Assembly (NCBI RefSeq): GCF_003073045.1
Contig: NC_037599.1
Span: forward strand, 23,750,555-23,814,554
Direction of reading: 5' to 3'
DNA length: 64,000 nt
DNA from: Pomacea canaliculata
Lineage: Eukaryota > Mollusca > Gastropoda > Architaenioglossa > Ampullariidae
The translations under genes were made by a program, and so were the position numbers. Positions within the stretch are counted from its first letter, which is position 1; the number at the start of each line of letters is the position of its first letter. Positions 1-34,725 of the stretch are shown here, piece after piece. The notes beneath the pieces are model-generated. The model saw only the letters and a list, made by a program, of their open reading frames with translations. It was not told the origin of the DNA and ran no database searches.

Positions 1-51
1 AGTAGAGGACGAGTACAAAGGGGAACAAAGGGAACTTCCGCTCCACGTGAG
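1..51 (+). repeat. 5' part of hairpin-tailed repeat, copy 1 (split by a hAT insertion)
   Basis: This stretch matches the start of the copy at 12950-13530 and continues at 3161 after the hAT element at 52-3160. The last eight bases, CACGTGAG (44-51), recur at 3161-3168 as the target-site duplication. The copy at 12993-13000 shows the same site without the insertion. Confidence 0.85.
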
Positions 52-1099
52 CAGGGATGGGCAAGCTACTTTTAATTTGTAGCCGGCTAGGCTACAGCTA
101 CTTTTTTTCAAAATGTAGCCGGCTACACTACAGCTACAATTTTGCAAAAAAGTAGCCAGTTTCTTTGGGCTACTTTTAAAATGTAGCCAGCTTCTTTTGG
201 CTACTTTTAAAAGCGTGATGTTATAACAAGTTAGCTGTAGCCAGCTGGCTGTAGCAACATACACAAACATCAAACACACAAAACACTATTACTTGCTTTA
301 CAAAGTTTTTATTATAATAAGAAACGGAGAACTGCGATATATACCGACAATTTTATTTAGTGAATCCATAAATGCTTTCATTCATTCCTTGCCCCCTTCC
401 TCCCCGGCCTTTTTCACACAATAAGTACACGTATTTTACGATTATATTAAACATTTCTGGATCTTTTTCCTCATCCTGTTTTTAGTGACAAAAGAAATTA
501 TATAAGTTTTCCGATAAACATTTGTTTTCTATAACTATTTGTTCCCTATTACTTAGAAATGAAAACTAAACAGATGCTTAAGTATCAGGTACCTGGTGGA
601 ATTTTCAATAAGTTAGGTTATGTGGTGATGAAAAATGTCAACCTCTTATCAATACTGTGACAATGAACAACAGACCATTGAAATAAATGAGTTTGCATGG
701 AATATAAGTAAAACACTGCTTAATCTAATTTAGGCAAGCAGATCATAAGGCATTTTTTTTCTAACACTGACACTGAAAACAAAGAAAGGAACACAAACTG
801 TTTCCAAAAGCTGATAGGGTGAAAAGTATAGTCCTGGCATACTAGAATAGACTTTAATTATATAGTAGGATGTCAAATGTAGCATATAAACACTGAAATA
901 TATTTTTCAAAAATGATCTGATACAAGATATATTTATTTTAAATCTTTAAGCTTGAATTTCTCTGTTTGTCGTTTTTGACATCCAGTCCTAAACTATAAA
1001 AACATATTTCTCAAGATTGGCTTGTGCTTCAGCAGTAAAATTTTGCAATTTTGTTTAGAAATGCATAAGCTACAAAGTGATGCATTTGAGAATATGGTA

Positions 1100-1835
1100 C
1101 AGTCAAATCTCCCTACTATGCCACCTACCGGGACCGAGCAAAAGTGGCATAGTAGCGAGAGTGGCATAGTAGAGAGGGTTCGTAAAAACGGCTTTATTTG
1201 CTCAAGTTACCCGTCAGTCCAAAGCAGGGGTGGGCAATTAATTTTCCCAAGGGGCCGCATGAGAAATTGGGATGGTTTTAGAGGGCCGGACTAATATAGT
1301 TAACTCAGTTTTACCTAATACTGTATATATAGTATATATACGGCGGGCGGGCCGGTCAGAGACTGCAGGAGTCCTTTGCCCAGGTCTGGTCCAAAGCTCT
1401 CAAGAATCGTCGCTTCGCTAGCTGTCTCCTCTCATTCTCCCCTCACCTCTTCATCCTCCACCCCTTCCAACACATCGCGCACCTGCATCCTGTCGCTAGT
1501 CGACCCTCACACCTTCCCTCTGTCACGTGGCTGTCACCCGGCTAGCGACCATCCCCCCCCCCACATTGCCAGCCTCCACCCTCCCTGTGTGCGTGCTATG
1601 TTCCATCCCACCTAACTGCGATGTCACACACTACCATACAGTATAATAATCGAGCACTGCGCGGAATTTTACAACTTGTGTCTTTTAACAGTCACAAAAA
1701 AGTGGCATAGTAGCGAGAGTAGGGGTGGCATAGTAATTTTTTTTTTACATTGAATTTATAGTCGGGACCGAGCAAAAGTGGCATAATACCGAGAGTGGCA
1801 TAGTAGAGGGGTGGCATAGTAGGGAGATTTGACTG
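1100..1835 (+). mobile_element. pogo/Tigger-like non-autonomous element, nested in the hAT
   Basis: Terminal inverted repeats begin CAGTCAAATCTCCCTACTAT, and the right end is the exact reverse. The element is flanked by TA (1098-1099 and 1836-1837), the target duplication of Tc1/mariner/pogo elements. The motif AGCAAAAGTGGCATAGTA recurs near both ends. No transposase is visible. A 164-bp hAT element interrupts it at 1225-1388. The reverse-oriented copy at 4497-5035 lacks that interruption. Confidence 0.85.
1225..1388. mobile_element. Small hAT MITE (third nesting level)
   Basis: It starts CAGGGGTGGGCAA and ends TTTGCCCAGGTCTG, flanked by the 8-bp duplication GTCCAAAG (1217-1224 and 1389-1396). 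The copy at 4497-5035 has the unfilled site. The inner part carries GGGCGGGCCGGTC, shared with the hAT MITE at 24160-24246. No coding capacity. Confidence 0.9.
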
Positions 1836-2258
1836 TATAGACATTACTTTTGATAAAATTAACATTTTTCTAAATATTTTCTAAATATTTAATTGCCACA
1901 TTCACACTGAGTCGGGGGGTACCATGTCTGATTTTTTAAATCTCCTAGAAATCTTGAGATATCAAAACGCCTTATGCATCAGTTTTCTTATCAGTGCCTC
2001 TAGTTTACAAAAAATCCAAAACCTTTGGTATATGACTTATGGTATTGTGTAAATTTGTTTTTTTTAAATGATTGTACGTTTTGAAACAAAATCGTTGATT
2101 AAAGTCACAATATTTCACTTTAGGTACTCAAAACAGTTTTGAAAGTGCTATATTTATGTTATTTGTTACTCTATATTTAAAAACCCTTAAAGATATTTAA
2201 AATATGGATTTTTAATTTTTGGAGTGTACCGGTAACCTTAAAACAAATCTACATTCTT

Positions 2259-2400
2259 TTAGTCCTTCATGGAATTGAATTTGAGCAGAACTTTGGCCTC
2301 GAAGTTGCTGTCTGTCACCCTAGTTCGCAGCTTTTGTCATGATAAGTCCTGCCAGACTGAACAATCTCTCAACAATTCTTGCATTTGAAACTATACCCAC
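2259..2400 (-). pseudogene. hAT transposase C-terminal remnant
   Basis: On the minus strand one frame reads RIVERLFSLAGLIMTK and the neighbouring frame continues RTRVTDSNFEAKVLLKFNS before a stop. This is the C-terminal hAT dimerisation region, whose usual form is a SERLFS-x-AG core followed by RNRL and LLLK-like segments. The frame changes between the two halves, so the gene is broken. The catalytic part was not recognised in the rest of the element. Confidence 0.7.
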
Positions 2401-3160
2401 ATTTTGTGGCTTCGCAAAATGTAAAAAATTTCAAATAAGGCTGGAAATTGATGGTACGTCCATCTTCGTTTTTCAAATCGCTCCGCGCACATGGACGACC
2501 CGGTACTTCCGGTTACTGAGCGTGCGAGACACGTGGTGTCTGGCTGTCAAGACACCGAGCAGTGACAGCAGTGGCTGTCGTCGTCTTGCTGACACGCTGT
2601 CGACGAATGGTCGTGTAACCAACACTTCAAATGGCTACGTAGAGTGCTGTCGTACCAGAAATAACACAGAGATTGAATTCCACACTGAAGTTTCTTTAAT
2701 TCAGTATCTTTTTCTCAGCAGCTGGCCTAACTTCTCTCTCTCTCCAATTCACAAAGAGGTCCCACACCACTATCAGCCCTGCTATTTATTCTCCTCCCCT
2801 CGAACATTCTAGCACAGACATTCTATTTCGTCGCAATAAAGACATTTTTGAACATCGCTACATTGTTGAACATCATTTCCTCCCTCGCACAAAGACATTC
2901 TATCTTTTACATTGCTGCCGTGCTGAACATTCTGGAATATAGATGCAAATCTACAACCCAAAGACATTATACTTTGTACACTACTAGAGTGCTACAGTCG
3001 TGAAAGTAGCCAACATGTAGCCAAGCTACAGCTACTTTCTAAAATGTAGCTACGGCTACAAGCTACTTTTTTTAAATTTGTAGCCGGCTAAGCTACAAGC
3101 TACAAAATTTGTAGCCGGCTACAGTAGCTGTAGCTAGGCTACAGCTACTCCCCATCCCTG

Positions 3161-3660
3161 CACGTGAGTGACGTCATGACAAACAGGTAATCGGCAGGTT
3201 CCGCTTTTGTTGCCAGTGACAATAAATGTCAGAAGACTTTAACATTTCAATATAATTAATCTCTTCTTGTCAAGGTGTTCAATAATTATTAAATAAATAT
3301 AACAAGATTTCACGATAGTGAAGGATATTAATTTTCTAGAACTGGTTGAAAAGTGTTGTCGAACTTTTTCAAAAAGTAGTTGCTGACTGCATGGAGGGAA
3401 ACTTAAGCTGTACAGATTAATTTAAAGAAAATGTGGGTTTAAGGCCAAAACATGAATACAATTACCTTAAGGCGGTCCGGAGTGCTCATGGTTACTGTCG
3501 GAGACGACAGCGAGTGCCAAGATTTTCATCTGATCCTTTCCAAGAGCAAAGCAGTAGACTGCCGCAAAATTTTAACTAACAGTTCGTTTCATAAACACTC
3601 ACGTGTTTATGTTTTTATAGCATTTGCTTCTACGTCCATTTTCTTGCTTGGATGTTTTCC
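3161..3660 (+). repeat. Hairpin-tailed repeat, copy 1, main part
   Basis: This is nearly identical to 12993-13460. The head motif AATCGG is at 3189 and the tail motif GGCGGTC at 3471-3477. The tail can fold into three nested stems: outer GGCGGTC (3471-3477) with GACTGCC (3557-3563), middle GCTCATGG (3484-3491) with CCAAGAGC (3540-3547) with one mismatch, and inner CTGTCG/CGACAG (3495-3500 and 3505-3510) closed by a GAGA loop. Confidence 0.8.
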
Positions 3661-4496
3661 ATTTTAATAGTTTTGATTAACGACAGCGGTTTTCGTGTTG
3701 TGATATCGAATGAACGTTTGTTGTGAAGTAGTTAACAAAGGAGACTATTGTTATAATACTGACATTATTAGCTCATATAGCCCTACATCCTATTGTGTTC
3801 AACTCAGGTGTGGGCAAAGTATTGTCCTCGGATATCTTACGACCGGCCCGTCTTCCAAAGTGTGAAGTGCACTTACTTTCTTTTTTTCTATTGAGCTTAG
3901 GTTAATTTGATTGAAATTTAATTTATGAAGTACAACAGCTTTAGAAATTGGCAGTTTGTAATATTCTAACACAAACAAGATACAAAGATAACAAATAACA
4001 AGCTGACATGTCTGATGGAGTCGCTAGAGACCGTCAGCGGCGGCTGCCTTCAAAGGAAAGGCTGGCTTTAAAGTTTTATTTTTATTTATTTATTTTTCCG
4101 CCAAACATTCCATCACGCAAAGTGAACCGTTACAGTCCACTAGTCTTAATCACGTGACAGACACGCTAGGTGTTGTCTGTAGGCAGGGCAACGGGTAAAA
4201 ATCTGCTTTAGTGTGAAAGTAAGGAATTTCACACGCTATACGTGTTAATTTGTCATTAAAAAGTTTCTTTACAAATCGAGTGGCATTGTCGCCTGACTTT
4301 CCGTATGACTGCGAAATGTTTGGGCTGCATGTGTGATGGGAGTGTCCGTCCCGAGGCAGAGCACGACAAACATTTATTGGTAATATGTAAGTTTATGTTT
4401 TAAAGTTGCAGTTAAAAAAGAGAACTGAGCTTTAACGTGCAATATTTTTGTTTATAAATGGTTCACTTTTGGAGAGAGAGAGAAGGTGGCGTAGTA
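3661..4496. other. Non-coding, no gene seen
   Basis: AT-rich sequence. The stretch 3805-3870 has a diverged look of the small hAT MITE family (GGTGTGGGCAAAG and CGGCCCGTC), but I could not find a duplication for it. No coding exon is supported. Confidence 0.4.
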
Positions 4497-5035
4497 CAGT
4501 CAAATCTCGCTACTATGCCACTCTCGGTACTATGCCACTTTTGCTCGGTCCCGACTATAAATTCAATGTAAAATAAATTTACTATGCCACCCCTACTCTC
4601 GCTACTATGCCACTTTTTTGTGATTGTTAAAAGGCACAAGTTGTGAAATTCCACGCAGTGCTCGATTATTATACTGTACGGTAGTGTGGGACATTGCAGT
4701 TAGGTGGACGGAACCTAGCACGCACACAGGGAGGGTGGAGGGTGGCGATAGGGGGTGGTGGTCGCTGGCCGGGTGACGGCCACGTGACAGAGGGAGAGCG
4801 GGAGGGGGTCGACTAGCGACAGGATGCAGGTGCGTGGATGTGGCTGGGAGGGGTGGAGGATGAAGAGGTGAGGGGGAGAATGAGAGGAGACAGCTAGCGC
4901 CAGCCGACACTTCTTGAGAGCTTTGGACTGACGGGTAACTTGCACAAATAAAGCCGTTTTTACAAACCCTCGCTACTATGCCACTTTTGCTCAGTCCCGG
5001 TTCCCGGTAGGTGGCATAGTAGCGAGATTTGACTG
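4497..5035 (-). mobile_element. pogo/Tigger-like non-autonomous element, second copy
   Basis: It is reverse-oriented relative to 1100-1835. Ends are CAGTCAAATCTCGCTACTAT and its inverse, flanked by TA (4495-4496 and 5036-5037). The interior matches the first copy closely, including the C-rich stretch, and carries the uninterrupted CTTTGGAC site where the other copy took a hAT MITE. Apparent reading frames inside are composition artefacts. Confidence 0.85.
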
Positions 5036-5962
5036 TATTTGTCTTTAGCCAAAAGTGCAGCCCTGATCCGATCTTCAGCGATTATTAACACCATGGTTGT
5101 GTCCCTGGAAACAGTCGAGAGCTTATCATCTGTGATTAACATCCGACAGGTAATCATCCCCATCACCATCTCACTTCACGATGTACCATTGCTGACTCAG
5201 TGGGTGTGGGGTCAAACCCCGAGCTAGACACTGTGTAGGGGACGTCACCGACACGTGAGTCTGTAATTCACTACTGGTAAAGGTAGACAACTGCTATTAA
5301 ATTCTCTGGGTGTCATAACCCTCCTATCCCCCCCATCCTGCACGTGCTCGCTTGCGGGCTTGCATCTGTAGTCTGGGATCTGTGCATATTGCTTTCTTTT
5401 GTTTGTTTTTTTTTTTTTGTTTGGTTTTGTTGTTTTCGTTTTTGTTTGGTTTTGTTGTTGTTTTTTGTTCGAAAATTTTATTTTTGCTTTTTTAATTTTT
5501 TCCCAAATTATATAAGGTCCCCATGTTCTAAAGTCCGTGTTTTCTAAATACTGAGAACGTAACCTGTGTTGTATATTGAAAACCACATACTACCTTTATT
5601 TACAGCATGACAGGTCCGGTTTAACTCCACAAACATAACGGAGTAAACAAAATCCAAATAAAGCTAAAATATTTTATGTTGGGGGTGGGGATTACAAAGT
5701 GGGTAAATATTATCAGGAATTGTCTGAATAGGTTCGTTTCTCTAATGTATGATCACTAATGAAAAGTAATAAAATGTCAGCAGCAATCTGTTATTAATAA
5801 AATGAAAAAAATTATTTATTGCCTTTACTATTCAAACTTTTGTGTGTAAGAAAAAGAAAAAGGGAAAGGCTAATGTAATGGGTTTGTGAAGGTGAATGTG
5901 TGTGAGATAGAGAGAGAGAGACTAAGTGTAAATGTGTGAGGGCTGATGTGAAAACATGAGTA

Positions 5963-6456
5963 CAGGTAGTCCTCGGGTTACGACGGTCTCGAGTTACGTC
6001 GTTTCGTGGTTACGACGCTCATTCCGACTTACGAGGTCAGTGCATCAAAGAAAAGGAAGGTCATCACCATGGAGGTGAAAGTGGATATCATAAGGCAATC
6101 TGAGAAGGGGAAACAGCAACAGAAATTGGCATGTCTTTAGGACTTAGTCGTTAGACTGTCGCTACGATTATCAAGGATAAAGATCGCATCCTTGAACACG
6201 TGACAGGATCTGCTCCTATGAAAGCGACAGTGATAACAAAGCGTACTGTACGGCAAACTATTTTACTGTACTTATGTTTATTGATAATTATGTAGGGCAC
6301 TGTGTTAGGATAGGTGTTTGGATAGGCTAAGTGTTTGCAGTACTGTACTGTTATTATGGTACAGTACTGTATGAACGTATGATCCGACTTACGTCGAAAT
6401 TCGGTTTACGACGCCACGTTAAGAACGGATCCCCGTCGTAAGTCGAGGACTACCTG
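5963..6456 (+). mobile_element. Internally deleted Tigger (pogo) transposon
   Basis: Inverted ends start CAGGTAGTCCTCG and finish CGAGGACTACCTG, flanked by TA (5961-5962 and 6457-6458). From 6042 to about 6240 the sequence encodes the start of a Tigger transposase: KKRKVITMEVKVDIIRQSEK, then in a shifted frame IGMSLGLSR, then TVATIIKDKDRILEHV. This is the CENP-B-type N-terminal helix-turn-helix. A frameshift and a stop break it, and the DDE catalytic domain is absent. Confidence 0.88.
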
Positions 6457-7540
6457 TATAAGTTAATAAGTTATAATTCATGAAATGACTATAAACAAAT
6501 GAAGAAATAACAACTGGCAAATCAACTAAACTCAAGAATTTCGGACCGAAAATTCCTCTTACCAACAGACACAAGCACCTGTTCAAACTATTTCAGGTGA
6601 TGAACTACATATATCAGGCTCGAATCAGAAACAGAAATAAAGATGCCGTCACCAACGGAGATTACACCCGACGACGACTCGTACAACATGAAGAGGCCAC
6701 ATTGATGTTCTTCTGTCCTTTCAGTCAGCCTGAAGCTCTGTGTAATGTAGCTTGAAATACTTTAGATGAACGAAACCAGAAGACAGATGGGAAGCATGTT
6801 GTACACCTTGCTGAAGTATCTCACCCTCGATCTCTCTCTCTCTCCCCCTCACACACGCACACACACAAAAGCGCGCGCGCGCGCGCGCACACACACACAC
6901 ACACACACAAGCGTGCCCCTTCTTGTCAGATGAAGTCCTTTTGTTTTAAAGACACAGGTAGGTGAAAACAATATCACCTGTGACTTGCTGACGTGATCTG
7001 AACAACTGACTTCGACATACATAGATTACCCTTTGAAGGTGGGCTATAAATTTCAGAATCAAGGCTGCGTGAAAGCTGACGACACTCGGGTGGCGGAACA
7101 TAATCAGGTATATCTGAATAAGTGCTTAAAGAATGGATAGGAGTAAAGAAACATCGTAGTTTTTCTTCAAATGAAGGATTCGATCATTTTTAATGCTAGC
7201 CATTCTGAACATAATATAATAATAACTATGTATATTGTACAATAACTTTTTATGTTTCAGAGAGTGATTTAGTTAAAATGAAAACTTGTTCGAAGATCTC
7301 GAGGTTAGCGACATTAAAAGATGATCTTAATTTTCTCCCGTGTTTGTAACCAATGTTCTGTGTGTTTTTAAATAAACTGCTTGGCTGAAGCGAAAAATAA
7401 ATATTTATCTGTGCAGTCAGAGTAACCCGCATTCGGAGCGAAAGCGTAAACAAAAGTTTGTTTGTATCTCTGGCTACCGAGCGACTAGCAACTAGACAGC
7501 AGGAATTCAAAGCTTCTGAGATCGCAACCGAGAGGGAAGA
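6457..7540. other. Upstream region of regucalcin 1, no further gene seen
   Basis: It contains a CT/CA/CG dinucleotide tract and AT-rich sequence. The promoter of the gene starting at 7541 should lie here, but no clear TATA box or other distinctive element was identified. Confidence 0.4.
6831..6910. repeat. Compound dinucleotide microsatellite (CT)n-(CA)n-(CG)n-(CA)n
   Basis: A CT run, then CA repeats, then about nine CG units, then CA units. Alternating purine-pyrimidine tracts like this can adopt Z-DNA. A related TG/CG tract lies in intron 2 of regucalcin 1, near 8186-8212. Confidence 0.9.
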
Positions 7541-9541
<2,001 letters not shown>

Positions 9542-9604
9542 CCGACCAGTCCCGAGTTTTCGAAGGTACCCCAAAAAACTTGAGATAACAACATGGGTGG
9601 CTGT

Positions 9605-9610
9605 AATAAA
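9605..9610 (+). promoter_or_regulatory. Candidate polyadenylation signal of regucalcin 1
   Basis: AATAAA, about 65 bases past the family stop position. A second AATAAA overlaps two bases upstream. Confidence 0.5.
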
Positions 9611-9620
9611 TAAAACCTAA

Positions 9621-11160
9621 AATATTCCTAATGAACCATGAGAAAAGGACAGGTTTTGAGCTAAGTATCCTATTTCCCGTTGTCGGTTAGTACTGACTGC
9701 TTGACTACTTATCATTGTGTGTTTTTGGCATAGAATGATTTAAACTTCCATAATTTTTAGTCCTTATAACTTACTGCACTATTTAGGTTTTTATTATTCT
9801 TTTATACGCAATCGATTATTTATTGATTCATATATTATGCTCCTTCTGATTGTGATTGTGCAATAAAACGCATTATTTCAATGAAGTCTTTACTTAAAAA
9901 ACCTACTACTTGAGAAGAACATGTCAAATACTATAAAGAGACAACACAGAAATGACTGACACATGAAACACAAATGTCATTATAAAGACTAGAAATCACA
10001 AGCAAAACACTATCTGTCTTTGTTCTTTTTCTATTTGTTCTTGAATCTCTCCCCCTCACTAACCAACACACACACACAAGAACACAATCTGATATAATAA
10101 GTACAACTCTGACACATTATTTCTTGTCTTCAACGTTGTAGACTGTTAACATCTTTTCATGTTCTAATAAAGTATTTAAAAACATACTTGGTTCTTGTTA
10201 TGTCTGTCCTCCGAAAGCAAAAATGATTCTATCTTTTGTTGCTATTTATAGTCCGACTTTATTATTAATATTAGGAGGGTAGTCTAAGAAATTCTGGAAA
10301 CTGAGGACCCATCGGCTCTCAGCAAATTAAAAGACTCCATCACCTTTGAAACATGCTTAAACAAGTAGGAAACAAGTATTAACAAAAAAAGATAATTATA
10401 TAATTTCTCACAAAATTATGGCACCAAGCATCCTTAACCAAAATCGGAAAAAATCAAATTAATAAATTACAATGATTTAATAAATTTATAAATTGAACAA
10501 AACATAAATCCCAAGGTCTGAAAGCTTAGAGACAATCTCCATTAAAATTAAAGCAAGAAGGTTCATTATACAAGTAATAGCCAGATATGATCTTTATTTG
10601 TCTGCTTGCCGGCTGCCGTTATACATTCTTCACAAACTCCAGAAAAGTACAGAACTCCTCTGTCTGGTGTTTAGAGACAAGAAACGGGACCATGTCTCTC
10701 CTCTCTTTCGTTTTCTACCATTCGCTTTTGCATCCAGTCAAACTGTCCGTGCTGTATTTTCATTTCATTACTGGCTGTTATTCTCATCCCCCTCCCACAT
10801 TCCCCATTTTCCACTTTACTCTACAGCGTAAAATCGCCTTTAGGGGGAAGCACTTTTCCTCTTTGAACTAAATGACACCAATAAAATCATCAACAATAAT
10901 AGTTCACAGTGTGATGACTTCCCTTCTCCTCGTTTTTTCTTACTCTCTCTCTGTACATAAATATATTTTCCTTCTTTCTTTCTACATCAAGAAACTATTT
11001 ATCTGATCATATACATACACGCCTATGTTTCTATATTTAAATGTAAATGTTCATGTTTATTATCAATATATATTCCCTGAGTCTGTTTAACCATAGATAT
11101 GTAAATAGTGTCGATGGTCTAACCATGACTGTGGCCGTGGACTATGTCCCTTGTCCTACA
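9621..11160. other. Intergenic, AT-rich, with possible old LINE pieces
   Basis: No gene is supported. At 10282-10370 one frame reads LETEDPSALSKLKDSITFET before a stop. At 10598-10830 another reads ACRLPLYILHKLQKSTELLC and onward. Both weakly recall the C-terminal end of LINE reverse-transcriptase proteins (LHWLPV-type and SAFK-type segments). These are suggestions only. Confidence 0.3.
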
Positions 11161-11164
11161 CTCC

Positions 11165-11545
11165 AATAAATCGGGAAACTCCACATTAGTGTTACTCATA
11201 ATAATCAAACCTAATTCCGATTATTCTGTTTACTTTTCAACAAATATTTAGCATTTCATAACCCTTAATTACTTATTTATAATTATTTCTGAGAGCCATG
11301 TAGCCAATTTTTACTGTCCTAAAGGTTATGGTCCTTGTTCGTTTATTTATTTAGAAATTTAGTTTTGAATGGTATGAACAAATAAAGCACCTTAGCACAG
11401 CTTGATATGCCTATTACATTGTTTATAATTGTAGATAAACAATTAATATGTAAGGCGGTCCGACAGTCGGGTGGTTATAGTCGGAATCGACAGCAGTACC
11501 CGGTGCTGCTAAACCTGTCACCTGGCGACAACCTAGACTGCCGTT
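11165..11545 (+). repeat. Hairpin-tailed repeat, copy 2 (old)
   Basis: Head AATCGG at 11169 and tail GGCGGTC at 11454, 285 bases apart. The outer arm GACTGCC is at 11535. The tail also has GTCGGGTG facing CACC and CGAC, an inner GTCG-GAAT-CGAC hairpin and an extra CAGCA/TGCTG hairpin. A T-run follows. Confidence 0.65.
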
Positions 11546-12222
11546 CGAAAATTCTTTTTACCTGATTTAAAATAAGAAACATTCTTTTTGTTATTTTTTT
11601 CAATGTTATTTCTTCTGCTGCGTCACCGACAACCTACACAAACATTTATAATAATTATCTGCAGTAATTCGTTATTTCCTGTGAACATCGGTTTTGTAGT
11701 TTAAATGCTTCCTTTGCTAACTGCATTCGTCAATGAGAAGCTTGGATACCTTGGATACAGGACGAGGAACATTTGTTTTTCGAAAAGAAGTATCATACAT
11801 GGGTATGTTTGTTGCTGCTAAATAAGTCACGTGACAATAATTATACCATCACCTCTTTTTCTGCGATGTTGAACCAACGATTTATAGTTTATTCTTCTTT
11901 TTCCTTCTGCAACATTTATCATTCCTTCTCACCGATTTAGTGTTTCGTTGAATTGTTAATTAAACATAAGATAATTATTATTTCATACCTCATCTCAAAT
12001 AGTAGTTGCTGATAAATTTCTGAAGAACCTACACGAAACTTTTCATGTTTGTTCGTTCTTGTAGTCGAATACATGAGGAATACAGACTACTGGAGAAATA
12101 ACAACAAAGTGGAACAGACTACAGAAGAATGTTTGAAGAAGACGGCAGTCGCTGCTGTTGACGACCATTGGGTTTGTAAGGTTTAAAAATAAACTGTCGG
12201 GTGCAGGCCTCGTACAGTTATA

Positions 12223-12595
12223 GTCAATCGGGAAAGTCAGATCAATAGCTAAAGGGCGATCATACATTTGTTTAGTTTCACAAGTCATAATGACAATTTT
12301 TCATGGAATTTCATCAAGATATCGAAAAGCATTTTTCATCAGTTTTGAGCATAAGGATGCTCAAGTTTGGTTATTTCGACTCTTTGTTGACAGTAAAGTG
12401 TTTAATATGTAAATTTAGTCGCTGACTGTATGAATAAAGTGAAACGTTACATAACACAACAAATATTTGTTTGTACTTTATAAGGACCTCGTTGTCTACA
12501 TGCGTAAGGCGGTCCGTGTGCTTGTGGGTTCTCGTCCTTAGTGGCTCTCCACCTACTCGCTTGACCATTAGACCGTCGTCAATGACTTTTTTTTC
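12223..12595 (+). repeat. Hairpin-tailed repeat, copy 3 (old)
   Basis: Head GTCAATCGG at 12223 and tail GGCGGTC at 12508, with AATCGG-to-tail spacing of 282 bases. The outer arm GACCGTC (12571-12577) pairs with one mismatch, and a run of eight T follows. The inner GAGA hairpin is lost in this copy. Confidence 0.65.
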
Positions 12596-12949
12596 GCAAC
12601 TTTTGGTTTGTTCTGAATAATAAAGTGCAGGGTTACATTTTTATAAGTTATTTTGATGACATCGGAACAGTTGCTTAATATCTTTAACAGTTTGTAGGAC
12701 AGTGGTACTTTATGATACATCGAATCCTGGTCAGGGCAAGAAGTGTGTGATTGATTCTTTAGTCTGCTAAGTCAGGAGTGTGGGTGTGTATACATATATA
12801 TATACACACAAAGTTAATTAAACAAAGAACATCTCAGGATACTTCTAGGCATGACGTCCGTGCTGAGTTTTTGGTCGGCGGCCGACATCTCTTCAAATTT
12901 CTTCGACTCCAAGAGACTTGTAGTCGAGACCAACTGAGGACGTTATTGG

Positions 12950-13530
12950 AGCAGCGGACGAGTACAGAGGGGAACAAAGGGAACTTCCGCTCCACGTGAG
13001 TGACGTCATGACAAACAGGTAATCGGCAGGTTCCGCTTTTGTTGCCAGTGACAATAAATGTCAGGAGACTTCAACATTTCAATATAATTAATCTCTTCTT
13101 GTCACGGTGTTGAATAATTATTAAATAAATATAACGAGATTTCACGATAGTGAAGGATAATATTAATTTTCTAGTACTGTATGAAAAGTGTTATCGAACT
13201 TTTTGAAAAAGTAGTTGCTGACTGCATGGAGGGAAACTTAAGCTGTACAAAGTAATTTAAAGAAAATGTGGGTTTAAGGCCAAAACATGAATACAATTAC
13301 CTTAAGGCGGTCCGGAGTGCTCATGGTTACTGTCGGAGACGACAGCAAGTGCCAAGATTCTCATCTGATCCCTTCCAAGAGCAAAACAGTAGACTGCCGC
13401 AAAATTTTAACTAACAGTTCGTTTCATAAATATTCGTGTATTTATGTTTTTATAGCATTTGCGTCTACTTCTGAGAATATTGAGACCAGCCGGCAAAATG
13501 GAAACTTTGCCCACCTCTGCTTAAATTGAT
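12950..13530 (+). repeat. Hairpin-tailed repeat, copy 4 (young, intact)
   Basis: This is the best complete copy, nearly identical to copy 1. It holds the uninterrupted CACGTGAG site (12993-13000), head AATCGG at 13021 and tail GGCGGTC at 13306, 285 bases apart. The tail has the same three stems as copy 1, including the inner CTGTCG/CGACAG stem with a GAGA loop, and the outer arm GACTGCC at 13392. Confidence 0.8.
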
Positions 13531-13749
13531 AAACGTATTTGACATTTCTTCTCGTATCTAAATCCCTCGTCTATTATACGTGTTTCCATGCAACAATTAG
13601 TCTACTTTTGTAATACACACACACTGTCACAAACTTGCCGTATATTTTTTTACATAAAAGCGAAATTTAAATTTGGTAGAAGCAACTGCTAACGACTACT
13701 GGTGTATACAGAATCCAAACTACACCCAGTAACACCGTGTATATAGACA

Positions 13750-14125
13750 CATAGTCAATCGGAAAAACCAGTTTGAATGGTTTCGAATAGACATCTGATT
13801 CATTTCATTATTTTGCAAAATATAACAGTTTTTGTAAGAAAACATACGAATGAGACAACTGTAATTTTATTAGTTTAAAGAGATAAGTATATAAGTCTTG
13901 CTCTTGGAGCTTTGTTTAAACAGATGTGTATTGGCTTTGTTAATTTAGTTAATAACGGTATGCAAACACTGAACAGCTTACTCACAGCAATTAGTAGACT
14001 TCACTGGTTTATAAGAGACTCGTGTGTCTATCATAGTAAGGTGGTCCGGAGTCTTGTGGGTTACTGTCGAGATGACTTCTTGTCCATAGACGATAAATTT
14101 GCGACCACCAAATCATGTTTTGGTG
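13750..14125 (+). repeat. Hairpin-tailed repeat, copy 5 (old)
   Basis: Head AGTCAATCGG, with AATCGG at 13757. The tail GGTGGTC is at 14040-14046, 283 bases away, and pairs perfectly with GACCACC (14103-14109). GTCT and TGG (14051-14059) face CCA and AGAC (14084-14091). The inner stem is reduced to GTC-GAGAT-GAC. Confidence 0.65.
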
Positions 14126-14559
14126 TTTTCTTTTATTTTATCTACTTTTAACAGTTTCTCTTTCCTCCATGTCTCCGACTATTTTATGTTTAAGTCCACA
14201 GATGGCTGTGTTCATCTGTATGCAAGAATTAAATTATTATTTGGTGTTAATGTTTAGGATAGCACTAACAAGAAGGAAACTATAACAATTAGTTAAATAT
14301 TAATTTTAATAAGGACAGCTTTTACGGAACATTGAATTGTTTGTTGCTGCAAGATATCTAAGGGTCCTACCTGAAATGGCTACCTGCATTTCTACTGCTA
14401 TTCAGAGGTCAGAAAATGTGTGAAATTTAGTGTCCAGTAACAACAAACTGTCATTATCTGGTGACGGTGACAGAAAGTGAAGGGAAGTAATCTTTGTGGC
14501 ACATAGATACCATGATCTGCGCATGCGCACTGCGCCACTCCACCTACTCTTCGCCCCTT

Positions 14560-14880
14560 TCTCTCCTGCCAGGCCTGACGAGAGGGGGGGACAGGGGGGA
14601 CTGGTGTACCCGGGCCCGCGGCTGTCAAGGGGGCCCGCCTTGGTCAGTGGATTTTTTTTTCTTCTCCTTTTCTTTTTCTTTTAAAGAAAGGTCTAAGGAC
14701 AGAACACCCAAGCGTTACACATGCACAAGTTGAGTTTGAGTGTAGATATTGAGATTCGAATTGTAAACATACATTATATACTGGGAAAATAATTTACGAT
14801 TACAAGTGCAAGGGGCCCGGAGAGGTCTGTCCCGGGGCCCGGGCTGGCTCTCGGCGGCTCTGTCTCCTGCTGACATTAAA
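14560..14880. repeat. GC-rich GGGCCC-bearing segment, possible DNA-transposon remnant
   Basis: Two GC-rich blocks with repeated CCCGGGCCC/GGGGCCCGG cores (about 14580-14640 and 14810-14860) enclose AT-rich sequence within an AT-rich surrounding. This resembles the ends of a non-autonomous DNA element, but I found no clean inverted termini or target duplication. Confidence 0.35.
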
Positions 14881-15489
14881 GGGACAAAACGGGTAACAGT
14901 GTGTTTACTTCTTTTGAAAGTACAAGCTAACTACAGGGAGAAGCTTTTAAACCATATATAAAATCATAAAATAATTGAGGGCTTAAACACCGAGATTAAA
15001 ATTAGATTATGTCAGATTGTTTCTGGGTGTCTGTTGTCAACAACAGCGAGGGGTTCGGTGTTCACCTCTCATCATGTCCATCTTCCAGAGTATTAAAAGA
15101 TACTGCTGCCAAATTTTTACGTTTCTTTTTTTCTGTTAAATCTGTGGTAAATATTTTAGACCTCCTTTGGGTTTTTTTTAAATTGTTTGTTTGGTTTGGT
15201 TTTGGTTTTACATGATCACTACATGACACCAGTTTTAATGAAACGAAATCGTAATTTCTTTCTCTAATTTTTTTAAACTTTCGTCATGGAAAATGAACAG
15301 CGTTCACCAACCCACACCCTGTCCCTACAGCCATTTTCCCCACTTTGTGGTGCTGCTTATATTGATAACAATATACAACAGTCGTGTCTCTGACGACGAG
15401 GAGTGCGCGAGATGAGATGAGTGTGAGGGAGGGGGAGTTCAGCTTCGCGCGCGCGGTGACGTCCCTTGCGGGCGGCTTGACCTATCGGG

Positions 15490-15910
15490 TCACGTAGTCA
15501 ATCGGGGAATTCCATTTCTCTGGCTCAATCGCCTGACATGTAATGCAATTTAACATTTAAACATTAAAAATTAATTCTTCACTACAATTGTCAATAATTA
15601 CAAGCAAAATATAACGAGATTGCACGAAATGAAGCGATAATCTTGATTTTTAATTACTGTCTGCAGATGTTTTTTAGAAGTTGGTTTAAAATTAATTACT
15701 AACTACATGGATGGCTTCCCAGACCAGACCCTAACTGCAGACGGGTGAAGGGTTTAAATAAAGGAGAACGTACAAGCTTTAGTTTAAGGTGGTCCGGACT
15801 TGATCCTGGGTTCTTGTTGGAGACAACAATGCTCGCCTCCCTACCTCCCCCCAATTCCGCCCCAGGATCGTACCTATAGACCACCGCACAATATTTTTTT
15901 TTCCAGAATT
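15490..15910 (+). repeat. Hairpin-tailed repeat, copy 6 (old, long stem)
   Basis: Head GTCAATCGG, with AATCGG at 15500. The tail GGTGGTC (15788-15794) is 288 bases away and pairs exactly with GACCACC (15879-15885). The middle stem GATCCTGGG (15802-15810) pairs exactly with CCCAGGATC (15861-15869). The inner TTGTTG/CAACAA (15814-15819, 15824-15829) closes on GAGA. A T-run follows at about 15892. Confidence 0.75.
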
Positions 15911-29065: not shown

Positions 29066-32000
29066 ATGGCTAGTTACCAGCTTATGTGCTCTGTAGTACG
29101 CCCAAAGAACCCTACAGAAGCCTGCAACATCAGCAATTTTGAAGAAAAGATCAATCAACATTCTTCAGCTGTAATTCATGATGTCTCTGTCACCAACAGC
29201 ACCAGCAGTCACATTTCAAGCCAGACTGAAGCACATGAAAGCAAATCAGAGGAACTGAACGATGACTCAGTGTTGTTTGCTTTGTTGCCAAGACAACTGC
29301 CAGGTTTTCAGGTGGAGTACATAGGTTCATCATCCTCTTTCTTGTTCTTTTTTGTGTACAGAAGGTTCTTGTGGTCTCTCTCTCCCCCCCACCACACTCC
29401 TGACTCACCTGGCCTCTCACTGAAGATGTCTGCTTTATTTGGAGGTTGTTTTTATTTCTATTGTGGTCAATAAATTTTTGTACAAACTGCTGTAAAATAA
29501 TGAAATGAAATCAGTAATTTGTAAATAATGTTTATTCTTTTTAATAACTTTATGGATTGATTTATTTTTAACTTTTACTTATATAGGTGCAGAGGAATTT
29601 GGTTCACAAGTTGAGCTACCACGATACTGGTGTAATATGTGTCCATTCGATACCCCTAGCAAACCTTGCTTGCTGCAACACCTTGTTGACCAACACTGCT
29701 TTATGTGCCCTTTGTGTCCATTTGCTGCATTTACTCGTTCTGCAGTAGTGAAACATGGCCTAAAGGAGCATCATGTCTTTCAGCAAGAGGTAAAAATCGT
29801 CTTTTGAGACAGAGGAAAGATAGTTATGGGTGTGCACATGCTTGGGTTTGTGCATATGGGCAAGAGAGAGAGACTGTGTGTGAGATATGATATTGACAGC
29901 ATCATTTCTGAAATGCTTCTATTAGAGTTTTCTTTCCTTACAGCGGCTGTGTAACATTTACATCCTTAACTACTGTTCTTATACTCAGTCTGAGTACTCC
30001 ATCATGCTCAGCATGTGTATTCCATCATATTCAAATGTATGATTAATCTTTTAGTTTTGCCATCCTAACAGACTACTCAGACCACCCTTTATGCTTTATG
30101 TGATGTCACTAAAATGAATGACACATGTTCATATTGTCAGAGACTAAGTGAAGACAATTATTTTGCAGATGTCTATGCAAAAACTTAGGGGACTCCAGCT
30201 TAATCGTCACAGTTTTCAAGACCTCTTTGAACCAGTCAGAACTACTGCTCGAGCTTCCAAAAGAGGCAGCGAGACTTGTGGTGAAAGTAGCGTAGGCAGC
30301 AAACCTGCCAAACAGATGCGAATGTGTGATCAAGATAAAAGAGGTGAAACAAATTCTACTCCAGGGTCTGGTTTTTCTGGAAACCAGAGTGCTTTTACAT
30401 CTGACGATAACGTGGTGGGAACTGATGGAAACAGAGACTTTGACCTGTGGGGGAGCAGTGCATCAAAACTTCTGGCTGATTTGGCAAGCAGTGCAAATTT
30501 GTGCAGTGAAGGAAAGTTGCTTGGTGAAAACATTGTCAGTTCCTCGGGCATGGAAGCTGATAGTGGAGTTGATACGTGGTCAGTGAACCGTGGGGACAGC
30601 AGAGAGGCACCCTATCTTGGCTCATCTCCCCAAGCTGCAATGCAGGCAACAAGAAAGATGGAGGGAGAGGAGGCAGTTGTCAGCATTAAACAGGAAGTGA
30701 TGTGGCCAGAAGACTGCTGCAATCACACTGGGAAGCTAACTGGTGGTGATGATGACCCTTCAAAAGAGGTTCAAGGTCAGCATGTCATTCACATTCCTTC
30801 GGAGGTAGACGTCTGCATCAAGATGGAGATAGACCCTGAGAGACAGGATCTTGGGCAGACCGTGCCAAGTGGTATCTTCCCTGACCACACGCAGCAAAAT
30901 GTTGGTGTCATGAGCTGTCAAGTGCAGCCATCTACCAGTCCACCGCTTTCATGCATCAGGGTTGAAAACTTGCAGAGACAGTTTGAGGAATCAGTTCGCT
31001 CTATAGACATGTTTAAATATCATGAACAAGATGCTTCCTCCCTTAGCCCAAGTCAGCATAAAAGGACGAAACCACCATCAACTGAGCCACACTGTCAAAG
31101 AAAAAGCAGTTTAGTCTCAAGTTTCAACCACATCCATTCAGACAGTAAAGAAGTAAGTGTTTCCAATCAGTCAGCTGTGGAGAATTTTCTGCTGGTGAAG
31201 CCTTCAGGAAAAAGCATGAGAGACCCATCGCAGAATAGCAGTCAGTGCATGACCAACGTGCTTCGACGTCTTTTAACAAAAGCCCAGTACTCAGACAAGG
31301 AAAGCTCTTTAAATGATGACAGTGGCAGATATTTGCAGGACAGGACCACAAATCAGTCTTCAGAAGATCAGACCACGAAGACTGCTATTTGCAGGCCAGT
31401 CACTTCAGGCTCTCCAGTCAAGTCTGCATGTGATGTTGAAGAAAGCAGAATTTTGATTAAGTGCGCTTCAGCTTCACAAGCATCCAGCGTGCAGAGATCA
31501 CCTCCTGATAGATTTGCTTATAATTTGCTGTCCTCACTACTCACTGCAGACAGATGTGGGGTCCCAGAAGATGTTTGCCCAATAGATGCGAAATCTGTGT
31601 CAGTGTATCAGAGTCAAGAGCCTCAGAAGATTGAATCTATGAAGACTTTCAAACAGGAACCAGATACAGCAAGCTCAGAATACAACCAAGCTCTGCCTGA
31701 TTATACTAAAGATCAGCAGCAGCAACTTTCAGACTGTGATTCTGGAAACAAATGGTCTGCTGCAACATCCAGGCAAGATTTCACATCCGTGGCCTCACAC
31801 GAAAACATCTTTGTGACATCGCACTTGCAGTCTTGTGCACCATACCTGAGAGTCAGAGATATTTTGAAGCTGCCAGCCAGCCACACACCACTGTTGCCTT
31901 CGCTTTTATTAGCTTCCGAATCTTCACGTTCATGCCCAGAGCAACCTAAACAGTCGAGACTGCTCAGCTTGGCTCTGAGCACCCCACTGGCATCAGCGCA

Positions 32001-34725
32001 GAAGAGAATAGATTCTTTCAAGTCCTACTCCAACATGTCACTGAGAGACATACTGACCATGAGGGTTCCACCCAACCTTGAGCTTGGTGGTGCCGCTAGT
32101 GCATCAAGCAAAGATGATCATGAGAATAAAGATGTTGGTGAAGAGGATGAAGAAAAGGTAGGGGGTGAAAGCCAGGTTGTATGGGAATGTGATTTTTGTG
32201 ATTTCTCAGGAGCAGAAAAGTCAGTCGTTGCAAGCCATCGAGCATCCCAACACAATGATTTTGTGGATGGCAGCTGTGAGGCAGAAAAAGGCTCTGCTCC
32301 ATGGCAAAGGTCTCCATTCAGCTCTGTCCCTGAGACACAAACTGGTTTGCCGCAGACAGGTAACTTACTGGATGAGGATGAGGATGGGAATGAAGAAAAT
32401 CCAAACCGAAAGATCTTTAGTCCTTCCAGACATTGTGTAAATAAAAGAAAACTTAAAAGGGAATCCTTAAGTACCCCAAAAACTGAAGATTCTGAAAGTG
32501 AAATGGACGATTCTACAGGAGGAAGAAAGAGCTTATTAGCCTCATCATCTGAGCCAGATGATCCTGAAGATGGTAATTACATTCCTCCAAAGTCATTGCA
32601 ACAGTCTGACAGCTATGACAGCGAATCTTTTTCGGATACCGATGCAGAACAAGATAGCTTCTCTCCCAGGAGAAAAGAAGCAAAGAATGGAGGGGAATCA
32701 AGGCTAACTCTCTTCAGCAAGACCATGGACAAGAGATTAGAGGCTGGTGTGATGTCGTTGAAATCAGAGCATACTGCATTTCCAGTTTGTTTGCCTGTAC
32801 TGTGCCTTAAAGGTAAGCTCTTTAAAACTTATAAAAGACCATATTCGATGCAACACAACCACGGTGCCACATTATTTCAAAGCCAAAACTCAGCAAGCCA
32901 GCGACCAGGAGTGTCACATGTTTCTTTGCCCCAGAGAGGAGTGTTCTTTCACAAGCCCGAATCCAAAGTTTTTTCTCCAGCATGTTTTAAAATGCCAGGG
33001 ACACATCTTTGGTGCCTGCTCCTTTGTGCTGAAAGTGCTGACCACACCCCTCTGTGTAAGCTTTAGGAAGTCAAGTGCTGCTCAGTGTGTGGTGGCCAGC
33101 TGCTACTTTTCCTCATCTGACTTGATGGTGATGCGCAGGCACCTGTTTGGCCATATTTTGCAATGCATGCCATGCTTATGGTTTTCATGCGCACCATTAC
33201 CAGTGCTATCACTGACTCTCATGCAGGCTCTAGTGACTTGTGCCCTTTCCTGTGCTTTTTGTGCAGCGAAAACCTGTCTACTCTGCAGTCAGCATGTGTT
33301 CACATGGAAAGCGAGCATGGAGGGTTGACTACTGGGGTCTTTTATCTCCAGAATCAGCCTGACGTCATCTGTGGGTCTGATGCTAGACCTGCTGTGTCTC
33401 TGTGTTGCACAAAGTGTAAACAGATGATGCTCCAGTTGGGACAGTGGCTGTGCCATATGTGTGAAATAACTGCTTCAGCTGCAGACATCAAGGACAGCAA
33501 GCATGAGACTCATCTCAGTACCATGTTATGGTCCAGACTATTGCAGCCTGCAGCTTACGACACTGACAGTGATGCTGATGTTAATGTGATGTCCCTTCAA
33601 CTTAATGAGTGGCCTTGGTACATCAAAAGCAGTACAGATGTGCTAGCTGCAAGAATTCCTAAGCCTGATTCAAGAACAGCTGAGCAAGTGCCTCTCATAC
33701 GACGCATCTTAACTGAGAATGCCCTGCTATCGTTGCCTGTTTTTCCATCAGCGTCTGTCAAATCTCAGGTCCAGAGTGATTGTTCAGAAAGTTTAGATTC
33801 ATTAAATGTGTCACAAACTAAAGTTATGACCAGAGTCCCTGCACCTTTCACAAACTCTGATGAGGCGGATCAAAGGTCTGGTGTTTTTGAAAAGAGTTCT
33901 TTCCCCTCAAAAGCAGGCAACACACAAAAGAAATCTCACAATCAGAACTCAGCTTTTGAGCGATGCTCATTTTCTTTGTTGAGGTCACAATTGCAAGGAG
34001 TTACTGCCACGCCACCTTTGATACACATGTGTGAAAACAAAATCTCAGACAAGGATTGTTCATATTTTAATAAAGCTGTTAAGTGGGCAAAAGACAGAGG
34101 TACCCCTGGTGAGTCTTCAGTTTCCAGAGCATTCTTTTCACTAGGAGCAAGCTCTGAAAAAAAGAAAAGTTTCACAACTTCTAACTCTATCCCCATTACT
34201 TCTGACGTGGCCTGCTGTGAGACAGTGGTGGAAAAGCAATACACTGATGCCAGTGACATTGATCATAGAGTCCAGCCAGATGATATTACTCAATCAAGTA
34301 GTTCTCAGAAAGACTCCAAGCTTGATCTGATGAATGGAGTATGGGCTTGCGGACCACTGTTGCGGTCATCGCTGACCAATCCAATAGCAGATAATACCAG
34401 CAAACGACACTGTCATTCTTTGGGTACCAGTACTTTGGAGGCAGCAGCAGCAGAAAGAAGGGATCATTTCCAGACAAAGGATGATGGTCAGTCCCAAGTT
34501 GATCAGAGCAGTGCCACACCATCTCATCATGCATCTCAATTGTCCAACCCCCTGGCAAAATCTTGCCATTGCTCCCAGCCCCACTGTCAGTCAGAACTTT
34601 GTGACCCTCTCATTGCTGGGAAGGAGACAGAAGACATGGTTGCATGGTTGGATCAGCAAGGCAGCCACATGATGCGTGTTTTAGGTGATGCCATGGATGA
34701 CTCCAGTAATGAAAAACAGTTTTGA
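29066..34725 (+). CDS. Large C2H2 zinc-finger protein, family not recognised
   Basis: Likely exons: 29066 to about 29300, about 29587-29789, 30169-32812 and about 32898-34725. The ATG at 29066 has a good context (AAGATGG). Exon 2 encodes two adjacent C2H2 fingers (CNMC...H-x4-H and CPLC...H-x4-H). Exon 3 is long, low-complexity and Ser-rich, with one finger at 32188-32253 (CDFC...H-x4-H) and acidic stretches. Exon 4 adds a C2HC-like finger, a CVVASC...H-x3-H finger and, in a second frame, CFLC...H-x4-H. The frame changes by one base around 33150-33165 between two finger-bearing stretches; no splice pair fits, so an indel is likely. The exon 1/2 junction is uncertain. A nuclear DNA-binding or chromatin role is likely from the fingers; the target is unknown. 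Confidence 0.75.

Follow-up and report, generated by a model that had tools for sequence, protein, structure and literature searches.

The stretch analysed here, called the window, comprises 64,000 nucleotides of the genome of the golden apple snail, Pomacea canaliculata (contig NC_037599.1, our G000:C10, positions 23750555 to 23814554; the genome has 440 Mb in 24 contigs). It carries six same-strand copies of a short sequence whose ends pair with each other and which closes with a run of T, and these copies are very probably Y RNA/stem-bulge RNA (sbRNA) genes, six of a cluster of eight. With coordinates counted from the first base of the window and running from the first paired base to the end of the T-run (the first run of at least four T after base 70), the six genes and the evidence for each are as follows.

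3471 to 3573, plus strand: Y RNA-like gene 1 (c1); anatomy, fold, covariance model, upper stem
11454 to 11559, plus strand: Y RNA-like gene 2 (c2); anatomy, fold, covariance model, full-length match to RF00019
12508 to 12594, plus strand: Y RNA-like gene 3 (c3); anatomy, fold, covariance model, full-length match to RF01656
13306 to 13408, plus strand: Y RNA-like gene 4 (c4), a recent duplicate of c1; anatomy, fold, covariance model
14040 to 14121, plus strand: Y RNA-like gene 5 (c5); anatomy, fold, covariance model, sbRNA primer words
15788 to 15902, plus strand: Y RNA-like gene 6 (c6); anatomy, fold, covariance model, upper stem

Passages of PMC4450293 and PMC4726728 describe the superfamily as RNAs of about 100 ± 20 nt whose 5' end pairs with the 3' end and which carry a poly(U) tail. 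The snail copies fit this description, with paired ends and with a T-run in 6/6 that ends 82 to 115 nt from the first paired base, in agreement with the T-run that the original prediction, made from the letters of the window, had placed after the hairpin. The terminal 7-bp stem, also predicted, was paired in 42/42 cells of the six copies and in 8/8 genes; one pair showed a double change, from C-G to U-A, and in two pairs G-C alternated with G-U. The C that follows it (C8) was bulged, being unpaired in 5/6 minimum-energy folds, and the folding z-scores of the six copies ranged from -1.5 to -3.4. The invariant letters of the six copies include GGUCCG in the lower stem, which is also present in the two further genes upstream of the window (c2' and c3'), and GGUU before the loop. 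Since both words occur in the consensus lines of RF00019 and RF01656, these are letters of Y RNAs.

Above the bulge, an upper stem of 7 to 9 pairs was located by hand in 8/8 genes, including the nine pairs of c6, a perfect middle stem that had been pointed out before together with its counterparts. The UG/CA element of this stem consisted of standard A-U and G-C pairs in 6/8 genes and included a wobble pair (G-U) in the other two, c3 and c3'; the loop motif read UUAY in 5/8 and UUCU in 3/8. According to passages of PMC4450293, sbRNAs and Y RNAs share a bulged C, a UG-CA upper stem, a poly(U) tail and, as a rule, UUA(U/C)C as the motif of the loop. In the snail the bulged C, UG-CA (as a wobble in 2/8) and poly(U) were present, with the first four letters of the loop motif in 5/8. 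The inner stem was less regular, with 83% of its cells paired and 2/6 pairs changed on both sides. It had been said always to close on GAGA where intact, which is partly right; as read from the letters, this holds for c1, c4 and c6, while c2 closes on GAAT, c5 would close with GUC/GAC on GAGAU, and c3 retains just a 3-bp core.

Comparison with 4,227 Rfam families, in which the gathering score is 38 for both RF00019 and RF01656, returned two different models of the Y RNA superfamily at full length. When c2' was searched alone, Y_RNA (RF00019) was the best family, with 18.6 bits and an E value of 0.087 over model positions 1-96 of 96. For c3 and c3' alone, RF01656 was the only family listed, with 15.1 bits (E value of 0.55) and 13.4 bits (E value of 1.6), respectively, each over positions 1-130 of 130. 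In a scan of 5.2 kb, c2 matched RF00019 at full length with 18.2 bits, the fourth by bits of the seven matches listed; three of the non-Y matches scored higher. These other matches (mir-297 twice, pRNA, U8, NPPA-AS1_3 and COG3860) were below gathering and were taken as chance; all lay outside the six RNAs except COG3860, which fell inside c2 with 15.0 bits. When c5 and c6 were each scanned as short sequences, four and three other families came up, respectively, none of which reached gathering; these were likewise attributed to chance. The single-copy scans covered c2', c3, c3', c4, c5 and c6.

Agreement was also found with published primers for Caenorhabditis elegans sbRNAs. The c5 gene shares GGTCCGGAGTC with the CeN75 and CeN77 primers and TGGGTTAC with the CeN73 primers. 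In a shuffle test that covered c1, c2, c3, c5 and c6, 11 consecutive bases were common to the primers and c5 and to the primers and c1, a result reached in 4/2000 shuffles for each. The RF01656 family is named ceN72-3_ceN74-2; passages of PMC8477234 and PMC4450293 name CeN72 and CeN74-2 as sbRNAs, and CeN72-3 itself does not appear in those passages.

The paired changes had been offered as a sign of selection on the fold. They are real, with one pair in the terminal stem and two in the inner stem, and sliding the partners by 1 to 3 columns lowered pairing to 20-75% of cells. Column shuffles were less decisive. The covariation score was reached by 40/500 shuffles for the outer stem and 19/500 for both stems; at least as many doubly changed pairs arose in 312/500 and 75/500, and at least as many further pair types in 500/500 and 407/500, respectively. 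Exchange of the 3' arms of the upper stem among five copies, with c1 dropped as a near-duplicate of c4, reached the real total energy in 2/120 permutations, the real order included. Of the single copies, c6 stood out from 1,000 shuffles of its upper stem (pairing reached by 1) and c2 did so to a lesser degree (64). The covariation is modest, and the paired changes are insufficient to carry the case alone.

The same-strand arrangement and the fixed distance between an AATCGG head and the paired tail, both of which had been noted, were confirmed. AATCGG starts at 3189, 11169, 12226, 13021, 13757 and 15500 and GGYGGTCCG at 3471, 11454, 12508, 13306, 14040 and 15788, giving distances of 282, 285, 282, 285, 283 and 288 for c1 to c6. 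Judged from where the Y RNA match starts, the head is outside the RNA and belongs to its 5' flank, some 285 bases ahead of the first paired base. Alignment of the flanks gave three blocks, TAGTCAATCGG-like at about -290 to -280, TTAGTNNCTRACTGYATG-like at about -95 and TATA-like at -31 to -35, and the following elements were recorded, by flank alignment except for the last, for which the pattern was chosen after the sequences had been viewed.

3183 to 3200, plus strand: distal conserved element (AATCGG core) of c1, at -282
11163 to 11180, plus strand: distal conserved element of c2, at -285
12220 to 12237, plus strand: distal conserved element of c3, at -282
13015 to 13032, plus strand: distal conserved element of c4, at -285
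13751 to 13768, plus strand: distal conserved element of c5, at -283
15494 to 15511, plus strand: distal conserved element of c6, at -288
13211 to 13232, plus strand: second upstream element (TTAGTNNCTRACTGYATG-like) of c4, at about -95 to -74
14008 to 14015, plus strand: TATA-like box TTTATAAG of c5, at -32

The TTAGTNNCTRACTGYATG-like element was seen at a similar place in the other copies, most weakly in c2, and the TATA-like TTTAWA (TTTAAG in c1 and c4), a pattern chosen post hoc, was present at -31 to -35 in 6/6. The distal and -95 blocks scored 51 and 45 with c1 left out, against 41 for the best of 40 mononucleotide shuffles; because the copies are related by descent, these scores are no proof of function. 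The layout would fit a gene-external promoter for RNA polymerase III (Pol III). A promoter of the small nuclear RNA type, shared with U6 genes, was considered and rejected: in 330 upstream bases on the coding strand of seven U6 loci (those over the cut-off among 13 listed), the words AATCGG, ATCGGG and CAATCG gave one CAATCG only (L019), and by eye the -95 element was upstream of none of the seven.

The extent of the cluster was examined with a covariance model trained on the six window copies and with a genome-wide pattern, AAGGYGGTCCGN{8,14}GGTTNNNGTY, allowing 0 mismatches, which diverged relatives would escape. In the window the model matched just the six copies that were its own training set (49-92 bits), and no seventh copy was found with it. 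The pattern occurred at 11 places in 440 Mb, compared with 1 for the reversed control. Eight of the 11 form one same-strand cluster at C10 23749050-23766372, consisting of the six window copies and two upstream copies in the stretch L012, c2' (L012:8053) and c3' (L012:9121), which scored 72 and 51 bits with the model. The remaining three places (L001-L003) scored 14-17 bits against 49-92 for the cluster. Their heads resemble the Y RNA pattern, and by eye they look tRNA-like, perhaps from a tRNA-derived short interspersed element (SINE). A tRNA-like gene was rejected as a candidate, as ARAGORN called none in the window, in L001-L003 or in L012.

The eight-gene cluster arose partly by segmental duplication. 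Four pieces of 85-93% identity align L012 1222-9606 with window 4125-13000, and c1 extends the match to c4, so that a tandem duplication pairs c2'-c3'-c1 with c2-c3-c4. The window side of this duplication contains SMP-30-like exons as well as Y RNA genes. With their 94-95% identity, c1 and c4 are recent duplicates and count as one, which leaves five distinct copies in the window, and these are in turn of common descent. The best explanation for the fixed distance from head to tail is that whole genes were duplicated together with their 5' flanks.

This history bears on the suggestion in the original prediction that the copies belong to a SINE-like retroposon family with a Pol III-type end. The copies are indeed repeated, end in a T-run and fold as RNA, and GGTTNNNGTY is faintly like a tRNA B box. 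Dispersed copies on both strands, looked for with the exact pattern and by DNA search, were not found: the pattern places are eight copies on one strand in a single cluster plus the three weak ones, and the c4 unit as a DNA query gave three matches, to itself, c1 and part of c6. The copies also have common 5' flanks and share a segmental duplication, and no tRNA was called in the window. A retroposon origin is thus extremely unlikely. There is support for a folded RNA that ends in a Pol III-type T-run, as most of the features tested in the tail agree with those of the Y RNA/sbRNA family.

The duplicate pairs allow the RNA core (c2/c2', c3/c3' and c1/c4) to be compared with about 300 bases of upstream flank. 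Differences in the core numbered 2/89, 10/70 and 4/93, respectively, and those upstream numbered 12/~298, 28/~299 and 12/~297. The 10/70 differences between the c3 and c3' cores, along with a 3.1-kb insertion just upstream of c1, are what might be expected if these were decayed Y RNA genes, true relatives whose expression had been lost. Decay of this kind is highly improbable, as the terminal stem is intact in 8/8, the sole c3/c3' difference within it converts G-U into G-C, the T-run and TATA-like box are retained in 6/6, and the insertion falls outside the conserved distal element.

Ro60 would be the protein partner of these RNAs. The Pfam TROVE domain was found at 11 places in the genome. 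On C11, a stretch of 182 aa aligns over 174 residues with Ro60 of solved structure (E value of 5e-30), and a stretch on C5 at 28.08 Mb matches Ro60 with an E value of 3.5e-21; judging by these matches, the snail genome encodes Ro60. Several further TROVE matches lie close together at G000:C5:28079102-28101990, one of them Ro60-like by sequence, and may be Ro60 paralogues. Two TROVE exons on C5 near 13.28 Mb had no match in PDB sequences and were not called Ro60. Downstream of a Ro60-matching stretch, L034 4163-6832 on the minus strand carries reverse-transcriptase-like frames by eye, possibly an intronic retroelement.

Several results weigh against the assignment to Y RNAs. No copy reached the Rfam gathering score, with 0 matches at that level over the window, c4 alone gave no Rfam match, c5 and c6 alone gave no Y RNA match, and the match of c2 in the 5.2-kb scan had an E value of 4.8. 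A whole-genome search with RF00019 gave 0 matches at E ≤ 0.001, with 51/72747 candidates scored; no control genome gave a match with this search. The full UUA(U/C)C loop motif was found in 0/8 genes, the final C being missing in 8/8. Upper-stem pairing in c4 (109/1000), c5 (262/1000) and c3 (482/1000) was indistinct from shuffles, and the primer words of 8-9 bases in c2 (121/2000), c3 (164/2000) and c6 (37/2000) were unremarkable. The RNA core was no cleaner than the flank in c3/c3' and c1/c4, being lower only in c2/c2', and AATCGG was found in the 330 bases upstream of none of the seven U6 loci.

A mollusc-specific family of Pol III small RNAs, unrelated to Y RNAs and of the same shape by chance, would accommodate Rfam scores that are all below gathering and the lack of any Y RNA match for c4, c5 and c6 alone. 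It would leave as coincidences the full-length matches of two different Y-superfamily models on the right strand and in the same register, the 11-base and 8-base identities of c5 with C. elegans sbRNAs, and the presence of a Ro60 gene, and we consider it very unlikely.

For the Y RNA/sbRNA genes favoured here, transcription, polymerase, protein binding and function are predictions drawn from sequence. Pol III would read each gene from its own upstream promoter and stop at the T-run, yielding an RNA of 82-115 nt whose paired ends form a lower stem that carries a bulged C. This stem would be the binding site of Ro60, and the U-tail that of La. The upper stem with UG/CA and the variable loop would serve further partners and carry the remaining Y RNA functions, namely RNA quality control and replication initiation.

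The snail genes resemble nematode sbRNAs (RF01656; CeN73, CeN75 and CeN77) in the GGUCCGG lower stem with its bulged C, the UG/CA upper stem, GGGUUAY at the loop entry (c5), the multi-gene family and the T-run; passages of PMC4450293 assign each C. elegans sbRNA its own putative Pol III promoter. They differ in their scores (15.1 and 13.4 bits against a gathering score of 38), in lacking the last C of UUA(U/C)C in 8/8 and, relative to the RF01656 model, in the letters of the outer terminal stem. Vertebrate Y RNAs (RF00019) share with them clustered genes, a length of about 100 nt, a GGUCCG terminal stem, a U-tail and Ro60 in the genome, and GUGGGUUA is present in c5 as well as in the RF00019 consensus. 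In contrast to vertebrates, which have one to four genes per species according to passages of PMC4726728, the snail has eight; c2 and c2' scored 18.2 and 18.6 bits, where gathering requires 38, and the 3' arm reads UAGAC in 5/6 window copies instead of the UuGAC of the RF00019 model.

Passages of a 2009 survey of two schistosome genomes (PMC2770079) report no Y RNAs and name vertebrates and nematodes as the only groups in which they were known. Two insects and amphioxus are added to these in passages of a 2015 review (PMC4726728), and in passages of a tunicate survey the failure to find Y RNAs is attributed to limited search sensitivity (PMC5006418). No description of a mollusc Y RNA was found in a limited literature search covering mostly titles and the starts of abstracts, which is weak evidence of absence, and the main text of PMC5908917 contains neither 'Y RNA' nor 'Ro60'. 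The genes are thus of a known kind, in a phylum for which no description was found; earlier reports of mollusc Y RNAs may exist. We lean toward a joint reading in which this is the first lophotrochozoan Y RNA cluster and in which Y RNAs, with the Ro60 stem, the UG/CA upper stem and the GGUUAY loop entry already in place, go back to the last ancestor shared by vertebrates, nematodes and molluscs. In the snail lineage they would then have multiplied to an array of eight genes whose loops diverge, under the control of a Pol III promoter with a conserved element far upstream, near -285, that is absent from the snail's U6 genes. A mollusc set would help date the origin of a family best known from vertebrates and nematodes. 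If the assignment is true, the cluster also provides seeds for a better covariance model, would throw some light on why such genes escape Rfam annotation, and makes bilaterian-wide Ro60 binding and replication activity testable.

Elsewhere in the window, the open reading frame at 30148-33066 corresponds to P. canaliculata LOC112573960 (100% identity over 99%), and the neighbours include exons matching the SMP-30/gluconolactonase and RNA-cap guanine-N2 methyltransferase domains. The 3.1-kb insertion near c1, at window 44-3168, separates the upstream region of c1 from its c4-like flank. It has the ends CAGGGATGGG and CCCATCCCTG and an 8-base duplication, CACGTGAG, its uninterrupted c4 counterpart is at 12990, and the insertion looks hAT-like. 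Within it, at about window 1099-1838, lies a second element with the inverted ends TACAGTCAAATCTCCCTACTATGCCAC (read by eye), which resembles the pogo/Tigger type.

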